Shown in pieces: positions 11,278 to 13,202 of a stretch of DNA of 64,000 nt. The notes under the pieces are model-generated. The model saw nothing but the letters and a program-made list of their open reading frames with translations, had not been told where the DNA came from and made no database searches. Both the position numbers and the translations under genes were made by a program. This DNA comes from Deltaproteobacteria bacterium (GTDB taxonomy: Bacteria; Myxococcota_A; UBA9160; UBA6930): NCBI GenBank assembly GCA_016875395.1, contig VGRF01000013.1, positions 1 through 64,000 of the forward strand, in the 5' to 3' direction. How positions within the stretch are numbered: position 1 is the stretch's first letter; each line of letters starts with the position of its first letter.

Positions 11278-11703
<426 letters not shown>

Positions 11704-11794
11704 GAAACCCTCCTGTGGCGTGTGAGAAAGCGAAGGCGCGCAGCATATGGCAGGGCGCGAAAGGGGCCTAGAGGCGCGGCGCGAATCGTCACGA

Positions 11795-11883
11795 AGGTGT
11801 CTGATGCCGGCGCTACGGAAGATCGCAGCGCCGGAGTCGGAGACCTTCGCTGCGAGAAGCCGCAGCGCGGGCGTCAGACACCT
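11795..11883. repeat. Three-stem inverted-repeat element
   Basis: Outer arms 11795-11808 and 11870-11883 pair over 14 positions with one G-T wobble (arms begin AGGTGTCTGA and end TCAGACACCT). Inside are two separate 7-bp hairpins: 11808-11814 with 11827-11833, and 11848-11854 with 11861-11867. It sits between the end of the CoA-transferase gene and the start region of rubrerythrin, both on the minus strand. It could be a REP-like dispersed element, a structured RNA or a terminator without a U-tract. No second full copy was seen in this window. Confidence 0.6.
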
Positions 11884-11899
11884 CGGCTGCGGTGCGCGC

Positions 11900-13129
11900 T
11901 CAAACCACGCCGCTCTTCTTCAGCTCTGCGCGCTCGCTCGCATCGACGCCGAGCTCCGCGAGAATCTCCTCGTTGTGCGCGCCGATGGCTGGCGCGCCGC
12001 TGCGCACGCGCACCGGCGTGCGCGAGAACTTCGCGGCGGGGCCGACGACGGGGATGCGCGGGTTCCCCTCGACCGTCGTGGCCTGGAGCATCTCGCGGTC
12101 CGCGACGTGCGGGTCGCGCGCCGCTTCCGCGTAGGTGCGCACCGGCGCGATCGGCAGGCCCTCGGCGAGCAGCGCAGCTTCGGCCTCGGCGACGGTGCGC
12201 TCTGCCATCCAGTCCGCCACGAGCGCGTCGACCTGCGCGCGCCGCGCGAGACGCGCCGCCGTGGTCGCGTAGCCCGGGTCGTCCGCGAGCTCGGGGCGAC
12301 CGAGTACGCGCGCGAGACGCTTCCAGTGCGCGTCGACGAGCACGCCCACCATCGCGCTGCCGTCGCGGCACTTGTAGACGTTCGCAGGCGCGGCGATGCG
12401 GAACTGGTTGCCGAGCCGCGGCAGCTCCACGTCCATCGCACCGAGCGTCAAGTAGCCCGTGCTCTGGAAGAGGATCGAGTCGAGCAGCGAGATGTCGACG
12501 TGCTGTCCCTCGCCGGTGCGATCGCGGTGGCGCAGCGCGGCCATCGCGCCGAGTGCGGCGTGGAGCCCTGACAAGTCGTCGCCGATGAACGTCGGAGCCT
12601 TCACCGGCTCGCCGTCGGGCGAGCCGTTCAGCGAGATGAAGCCGCTCGCCGCCTGCGCGAGTGGGTCGTAGCCGGCGCGGTCGTGATCGCGGCCGTACTG
12701 CCCGAAGCCGCTGATCGAGACGAGGATCAGGTCGTGCTTGCGCGCGCGCAGCTCGCGGTAGCCCACGCCCCAGCCATCGAGCGCACCGGGGCGGAAGTTC
12801 TCGATCACGATGTCGGAGCGCCCGCACAGGTCGAGGAAGATCTCGCGCCCGCGCGGTGCGTGCAGATCGAGCGTGAGGCTGCGCTTGTTACGGTTCAGCG
12901 TGGCCTGCATGAACGACACGGGCGGGTTCGTGCCCGGGAGCAGCGGCGGCGAGCGCCGCGCGACTTCACCTGCGGGATGCTCGACCTTGATCACGTCGGC
13001 GCCGAAGTCGGCGAGGATGCAGCCCGCCATCGGCCCGGCCCAAGTCGTCGTGAACTCGACGATGCGCACCCCAGCGAGCGGCCCCGCGATGTCGCTGCGG
13101 GCTTCGCGGTAGAACTCGGACTTCTGCAT
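11900..13129 (-). CDS. CaiB/BaiF family CoA transferase
   Basis: A 409-residue class III CoA transferase, which moves CoA between an acyl-CoA and a free carboxylic acid through an aspartyl-CoA anhydride. It has the N-terminal GVRIVEFTTTWAGPMAG, DFGADVIKVEHP, NRNKRSLTLDL, ENFRPGALDGWG and AGYDPLAQAASGF, the latter carrying the probable catalytic Asp. Length and motif order are normal; the substrate is unknown (carnitine, bile-acid or aromatic-acid type). The ATG at 13129 has GAGG five bases upstream. A 73-base gap separates it from the HEAT-repeat gene on the same strand. Confidence 0.92.
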   Translation of the reverse strand: MQKSEFYREARSDIAGPLAGVRIVEFTTTWAGPMAGCILADFGADVIKVEHPAGEVARRSPPLLPGTNPPVSFMQATLNRNKRSLTLDLHAPRGREIFLDLCGRSDIVIENFRPGALDGWGVGYRELRARKHDLILVSISGFGQYGRDHDRAGYDPLAQAASGFISLNGSPDGEPVKAPTFIGDDLSGLHAALGAMAALRHRDRTGEGQHVDISLLDSILFQSTGYLTLGAMDVELPRLGNQFRIAAPANVYKCRDGSAMVGVLVDAHWKRLARVLGRPELADDPGYATTAARLARRAQVDALVADWMAERTVAEAEAALLAEGLPIAPVRTYAEAARDPHVADREMLQATTVEGNPRIPVVGPAAKFSRTPVRVRSGAPAIGAHNEEILAELGVDASERAELKKSGVV

Positions 13130-13202
13130 GTGCACCTCGTTCGGCGTGAGCGGGCGATAGCGGACGAAGGCGCACGCACGCGAGGCCCCGCGTGCCGTTC
13201 GC

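Follow-up and report, generated by a model that had tools for sequence, protein, structure and literature searches.

The stretch of DNA analysed here, referred to as the window, comprises the first 64,000 nucleotides of contig VGRF01000013.1 (GCA_016875395.1) from a Deltaproteobacteria bacterium. A family III CoA-transferase gene and a rubrerythrin gene follow one another in it on the same strand, and a repeat lies between them, 4 bp from the CoA-transferase stop codon (Table 1). The closest named relatives of the rubrerythrin belong to Myxococcota and Deltaproteobacteria MAGs, no more than a taxonomic hint. A preliminary description of the locus had reported an 89-base inverted repeat in this spacer; its sequence and coordinates are correct, and the structure is far beyond chance. 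The two arms pair over 14 positions, by 13 Watson-Crick pairs and one G-U pair. Folded as RNA, the element has a minimum free energy of -61.9 kcal/mol, compared with -34.8 +/- 3.2 kcal/mol for 200 shuffled sequences (z -8.5), and its z against shuffles is -7.0 when it is folded as DNA. The minus strand, which is the sense of both flanking genes, reaches -75 kcal/mol over 122 nt around the element (z -6.2).

Table 1. Genes, stems and putative repeat parts at the locus, in positions of the window.
Feature	Position	Strand	Basis
Rubrerythrin gene, downstream of the element, same strand as the CoA-transferase gene	11278..11703	-	PF02915, E 1.8e-30
Putative composite repeat: two degenerate units 74 bp apart and a linker, 113 bp	11783..11895	-	Joint PWM score
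Putative unit B, degenerate; intact box GAATCG (+ strand, 11783-11788), core GTCTGAT; 6 mismatches	11783..11821	-	Second unit PWM score in the window
Outer stem (14 bp), left arm; core of putative unit B	11795..11808	+	Pairing and fold
Local hairpin 1	11807..11834 (11807-11814 with 11827-11834)	+	Constrained fold
Linker region; alternatively a putative third unit, very degenerate, whose centre at 11839 is 37 bp away from that of either outer unit	11820..11858		PWM, mismatch count
Local hairpin 2	11848..11867 (11848-11854 with 11861-11867)	+	Constrained fold
Putative linker motif TCTCGCAGC, as in L037 and L058 but one base earlier, overlapping the last base of unit A	11849..11857	-	Comparison of copies
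Putative unit A, degenerate, with 5 mismatches to the consensus and GTCAGAC (+ strand, 11873-11879) as its core	11857..11895	-	Top unit PWM score in the window
Outer stem (14 bp), right arm; core of putative unit A	11870..11883	+	Pairing and fold
CoA-transferase family III gene, upstream of the element	11900..13135	-	PF02515, E 1.5e-119

The minimum-energy shape is one long rod, in which the arms of both hairpins pair with each other. The three-way junction proposed earlier therefore stands only in part: both local hairpins can form, but the best structure that keeps them together with the outer stem has -52.5 kcal/mol, which is 9.4 kcal/mol worse than the rod. The proposed extent of 89 bases is probably also too short: the arms pair as given, but the element reads as a longer one, of about 11783-11895.

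Then, could the CoA-transferase mRNA carry in its 3' region a functional structured RNA, or a non-canonical terminator, formed by the element? A very stable fold on either strand, placed directly behind the stop codon, would suit such a role, and some relatives share the gene order. However, a search of 11600-12000 gave neither a terminator-like nor a promoter-like match, and the element lacks the stem followed by a U-tract that marks an intrinsic terminator. A simple terminator was thus rejected, in agreement with the preliminary description, which had noted the missing U-tract. No Rfam family reached its gathering score within 11600-12100, and the miRNA, sRNA and thermometer families of Rfam, which scored far below it, were discarded as identities. 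For comparison with relatives, 91 related rubrerythrin loci were available, five of which have a CoA-transferase gene adjoining on the same strand within the DNA examined, two of these five (L178 and L187) looking like one genome. The core motif described below occurs in none of the five syntenic spacers, all of which are shorter than the one studied here. Since no Rfam family matches at gathering score and the core motif is absent from these five spacers, a conserved RNA, and with it the small structured RNA once suggested, is unlikely, and the explanation by an RNA or a terminator as a whole is very unlikely.

The spacer between the two genes is 196 bp long here, compared with 100, 138 and 106 bp in three genomes of the same family, and two named records of matching gene order have spacers of 100 and 104 bp. 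This excess of 58-96 bp is in the direction expected from an insertion. It is smaller than the element itself (113 bp), and therefore there has also been drift in spacer length or a loss of some sequence.

When the whole element was used as a 109-bp query, no second copy was found in its own genome or in 39 relatives. In its own genome the query matched itself and one 34-bp stretch (85%, E 4e-4); the latter sits inside long open frames, one of them membrane-protein-like, and was regarded as a chance match. As there is no second full copy, the multiple near-identical copies with terminal inverted repeats that define a MITE are lacking. The genome-wide search for the arm sequence, advised in the preliminary description, was more productive and leads to a family of intergenic palindromes, some of them paired around a common linker. 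The arm GGTGTCTGAYRCC, with no more than one mismatch, occurs at 18 places, two of which are the arms in the window, compared with 5 in a reversed control, and 9 of the 18 matches read GGCGTCTGACGCC. Several of their surroundings have GAATCG or CGATTC in common at a fixed distance. The pattern GAATCG-N(4-12)-GTCWGAC gives 57 matches in the genome, whereas the reversed control gives 1, and the spacer of the half-site is 10 in 46 of 50 cases among the fetched loci.

An intact unit of the family is a 39-bp interrupted palindrome, RAATCG-N8-GCGTCWGACGC-N8-CGATTY. With no more than three mismatches, 44 sites were identified in the genome (27, 10, 4 and 3 sites with 0, 1, 2 and 3 mismatches, respectively), while the reversed pattern gave none. 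The preliminary description had made its case depend on further copies in the genome and on compensatory changes; copies are indeed lacking for the whole 109-bp query, but the 39-bp unit has both its 44 sites and arms that covary. The family appears to be confined to a narrow lineage: among 79 genomes of the order, exact half-sites number 65 in this genome, one in G001, which was taken as a chance occurrence, and zero in the other 77. A scan for the exact full palindrome over one genome per species, a set from which records of this genome or near it may be absent, returned none. The full-text literature search found no description of the 39-bp family, which is weak evidence because sequence strings are poorly searchable.

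Across 41 units, there is hardly any change in the core and the outer boxes, whereas the two 8-base stretches are variable, with a conservation of only about 55%. The constancy of core and boxes is partly produced by the selection inherent in the search, and therefore the box opposite the searched one was examined. Among 61 half-sites, a set that counts a site twice, once from either side, if both of its boxes are good, this box has no mismatch in 50, one in 6, and four or five in 5. The N8 arms covary: Watson-Crick cells number 144 in the 41 units, whereas 2000 shuffles average 117 and never exceed 142, and with G-U pairs allowed the arm pairing is 61% vs. 55%, a value reached by about 1 shuffle in 1000; kinship among the copies may inflate these figures as well as the box counts. 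Eight units contain neither GAATCG nor CGATTC. Their boxes are fully complementary in three (GACCCG/CGGGTC, AGATCG/CGATCT and AAATCG/CGATTT), and not in five. At L014 (G000:C25:34951), two units 54 bp apart have the boxes GACCCG/CGGGTC, changed on both sides, and GACCCG/CGAGTC. A mini-hairpin inside the half-unit (GAATC-GAG-GATTC) was also considered and dropped, as its pairing did not clearly stand out from that of shuffles (p 0.065 and 0.146).

The units are extragenic almost without exception: 42 of 43 fetched sites are intergenic according to a codon-usage gene prediction, by which 93% of the window is coding. Tandem genes flank 20 of these 42, divergent genes 11 and convergent genes 7, and the remaining 4 lack a predicted gene to one side. 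The 64 proteins read out from the flanks are unrelated and mostly metabolic or housekeeping proteins (58 with a Pfam match and 6 without), and no transposase family was found among them by Pfam. At L033, L039, L047 and L059 a GTCCGCTCGCGTCCGC-like sequence comes directly after the unit, perhaps as a second, family-associated repeat.

Such a pattern of constancy raises the question of whether the 39-bp unit is a selected binding site of a regulator or nucleoid protein, in which case the copy in the window would be a weak or dead site. Boxes and a core that are nearly invariant beside poorly conserved N8 stretches would be expected of a binding site, as would the opposite box, which no search selected and which has no more than one mismatch in 56 of the 61 half-sites. 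On the other hand, the flanking genes with Pfam matches are unrelated housekeeping genes, and the 20 tandem and 7 convergent pairs among the 38 sites with both neighbours predicted mean that the units are not only upstream of genes. Moreover, a site bound as duplex has no need of covarying arms. We consider this explanation rather unlikely. A wider version of it, to which we give quite a small chance, is that the tripartite palindrome would be a putative genome-wide site of an undescribed protein of the genus (a nucleoid protein, a chromosome-organising protein or a domesticated transposase), with the boxes kept by selection and the spacers drifting, and that the window holds a decaying double site.

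Some units occur in larger arrangements, with spacings of 36-37, 42-44, 54, 57 and 74-75 bp between the centres of neighbouring units. In six copies (L005, L018, L037, L040, L054 and L058), a common linker directly follows a unit and starts with TCTCGCAAC, TCTCGCAGC or a one-base variant, the consensus start being TCTCGCARC. A loose linker pattern had marked nine sequences, from which these six were taken; L052 and two sequences of L060 were dropped since the match was off the linker start or the sequence was a different one. A second unit or core is located 74-75 bp from the first in five of the six linker copies, L054 being the exception, and is degenerate in L005. In the best composites (L018, L037 and L058), both units have one T-centred orientation and each is a full palindrome.

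The element in the window can be read as a composite of the same kind (Table 1). To assess this reading, a position weight matrix (PWM) was built from the 41 units, which do not include those of the window. The two outer units of the element rank first and second among the 63,962 positions of the window, and the middle reading ranks eighth, with 8 mismatches, as one of 29 places that have no more than 8. Taken singly, the scores are not outstanding, for the best score of 300 shuffled 20-kb stretches reaches that of unit A in 2% and that of unit B in 23% of cases. Scored jointly, two units at 74-75 bp and the linker give 21.2 bits; the second-best place in the window gives -48.4 bits, and none of 400 shuffled 64-kb windows reaches the score of the element (maximum -3.2). 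It should be noted that the search for the family was opened with the element's own arms, so that the match of the core is not independent, and the core columns were therefore masked in a second test. With this mask, the pair with linker still ranks first of 63,962 positions, the pair without linker ranks 22nd, and the single units centred at 11802, 11839 and 11876 rank only 487, 47 and 396. Against the composite reading, L054, itself one of the six linker copies, scores only -18.9 in the joint test, and an nhmmer profile of the six copies meets the element with E 0.71 on the plus strand and E 2.1 on the minus strand, the strand of the composite reading. These matches are the second and third in the window, and against 5.8 bits here, shuffled sequence gives up to 10.3 bits. 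In addition, the window units, at 5 and 6 mismatches, exceed the limit of three by which the 44 copies were defined. Kinship of the element with the 39-bp family is consequently likely, yet uncertain, the joint PWM score speaking for it, nhmmer against it, and the single-unit and core-masked ranks giving a mixed picture.

The same data bear on another explanation, by which the element would be an unrelated single-copy inverted repeat, such as a decayed MITE bounded by the 14-bp terminal repeats AGGTGTCTGAYGCC, and its likeness to the family would go no further than the GTCTGA core and be due to chance. The failure to find a second full copy, the nhmmer result, which does not link the element with the six copies, and the single units, which are not significant alone and fall to low ranks once the core is masked, all agree with it. 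By contrast, the GAATCG box stands at the exact spacing of the family, the units are 74 bp apart, TCTCGCAGC deviates by no more than one base from its place in the linker copies, and no shuffle attains the joint score. Nor was a target-site duplication seen by eye around the element. Such a single-copy repeat is therefore unlikely.

Taken together, the element is probably a degenerate copy of a lineage-specific, REP/BIME-like intergenic palindromic repeat, rather than a new RNA. Of the two identities suggested in the preliminary description, the "REP/BIME-like mobile repeat" is the better one, and it is the REP/BIME-like part that is backed by the genome-wide intergenic family. According to this explanation, two decayed units and a linker would fill 11783-11895, between the CoA-transferase stop codon and the rubrerythrin gene. 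The cores are nearly self-complementary, so any two of them can pair, which would give the 14-bp outer stem, and the adjoining half-units would supply the two inner hairpins. The units may have spread as non-autonomous elements, mobilised most likely by an IS200/IS605-like HUH transposase (RAYT/TIRYT-type) that would act on the single-stranded hairpin and that is now lost or unrecognised; the copy in the window would have decayed after its arrival. If it is transcribed together with the CoA-transferase gene, the rod in the 3' region could hinder exonucleases or favour Rho termination, by analogy with what is described for REPs. No dedicated function is expected of this copy.

The natural candidates for such a mobiliser are the RAYT-like genes of the genome itself. 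Pfam family PF01797 identifies one gene, and a relative's protein used as query finds a second; a profile of four proteins, two of which are the products of these genes, finds three RAYT-like genes, at C6, C25 and C30, one of them below the Pfam cut-off (17.5 bits vs. 23). Palindromes particular to the locus flank each gene on either side: GGGACGTACGTGCAC at C6, GACATTTCGGCCCGGCCGAA at C25 and GGGACGTTCCGCAAGTAAGTAAAG at C30. The three loci (L021, G000:C6:88585; L170, G000:C25:61950; L185, G000:C30:6150) carry different sets of long self-complementary repeats, all of them unrelated to the GTCWGAC family. GTCWGAC does not occur within about 1.5 kb of the three genes, which were consequently rejected as mobilisers. 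The check for a RAYT gene proposed in the preliminary description thus had a positive outcome for the gene and a negative one for the association. On sequence grounds, the genome harbours RAYT/TIRYT-type units, none of which was found with the 39-bp repeat.

In the sister genus G013, GGNGTCWGACNCC was found at 12 sites (L151-L162), 11 of which are GGGGTCWGACCCC, with none in the control, and the flanks differ from those of the family. One of the 12 sites of this GGGGTCTGACCCC-type palindrome precedes a RAYT reading frame by about 440 bp; this frame runs to the end of its contig with its other flank unseen, and the motif is absent from the other two loci with PF01797 matches; as a hint of a link this arrangement is suggestive only. 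For G004, a genome of the same family, 31 PF01797 matches were recorded, many of them in short frames near contig ends, which suggests an expansion.

With respect to known systems, the family resembles the REP/BIME sequences in the broad sense. It consists of many short palindromic copies in one genome (44 sites, with none in the control), these are extragenic, and the spacings of the units together with the TCTCGCARC-like linker in six copies form higher-order arrays. Like the GTAG REPs of enterobacteria and pseudomonads, it comprises dozens of short intergenic palindromes in one lineage, including pairs with common linkers able to form larger folds. Unlike them, the unit has no GTAG in its consensus columns, and no RAYT gene flanked by the 39-bp repeat was found; GTAG or CTAC lies within 12 bases outside a box at 1 of 43 sites, compared with 3 in stretches further out. 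Its 44 sites are also fewer than the more than 100 copies per genome that are usual for REPs according to PMC2817692. The same source describes the R0 repeats of Pseudomonas fluorescens as 89 bp long with two inverted elements at their ends. REPINs and R0 repeats are similar in having two palindromic units around a linker with a total of about 90-110 bp, and differ from L018, L037 and L058, whose units have one orientation and are each a full palindrome.

The TIR repeats of TIRYT (RAYT-like) genes, according to PMC3733652, have the motif GGGGWSAS and likewise form dimers, some being self-complementary. This motif fits GGGGTCAG of the G013 palindrome GGGGTCAGACCCC, and GGCGTCAG of the family is one base off; the three RAYT-like genes of this genome, however, carry other terminal palindromes. 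CGTC-tagged REPs consist of a stem of 8-9 bp with CGTC unpaired on one side of it and a likewise unpaired tail, mostly CCA (Di Nocera et al., 2013; PMC3733652). They share with the present family the CGTC sequence, the formation of dimers and the lack of a transposase gene found flanked by them despite tyrosine transposases in the genome; in the 39-bp unit, by contrast, CGTC is central in the palindrome on both strands rather than a tag at one end. The element in the window is therefore ordinary in itself, but it reveals a lineage-specific palindrome with near-invariant boxes and core and variable spacers, with which no transposase gene was found. The puzzle is the one posed by the CGTC REPs (PMC3733652), namely repeats without a dedicated transposase, here in a Myxococcota-related-looking bacterium, and a defined motif is now at hand with which spread by a transposase can be tested against upkeep by selection.
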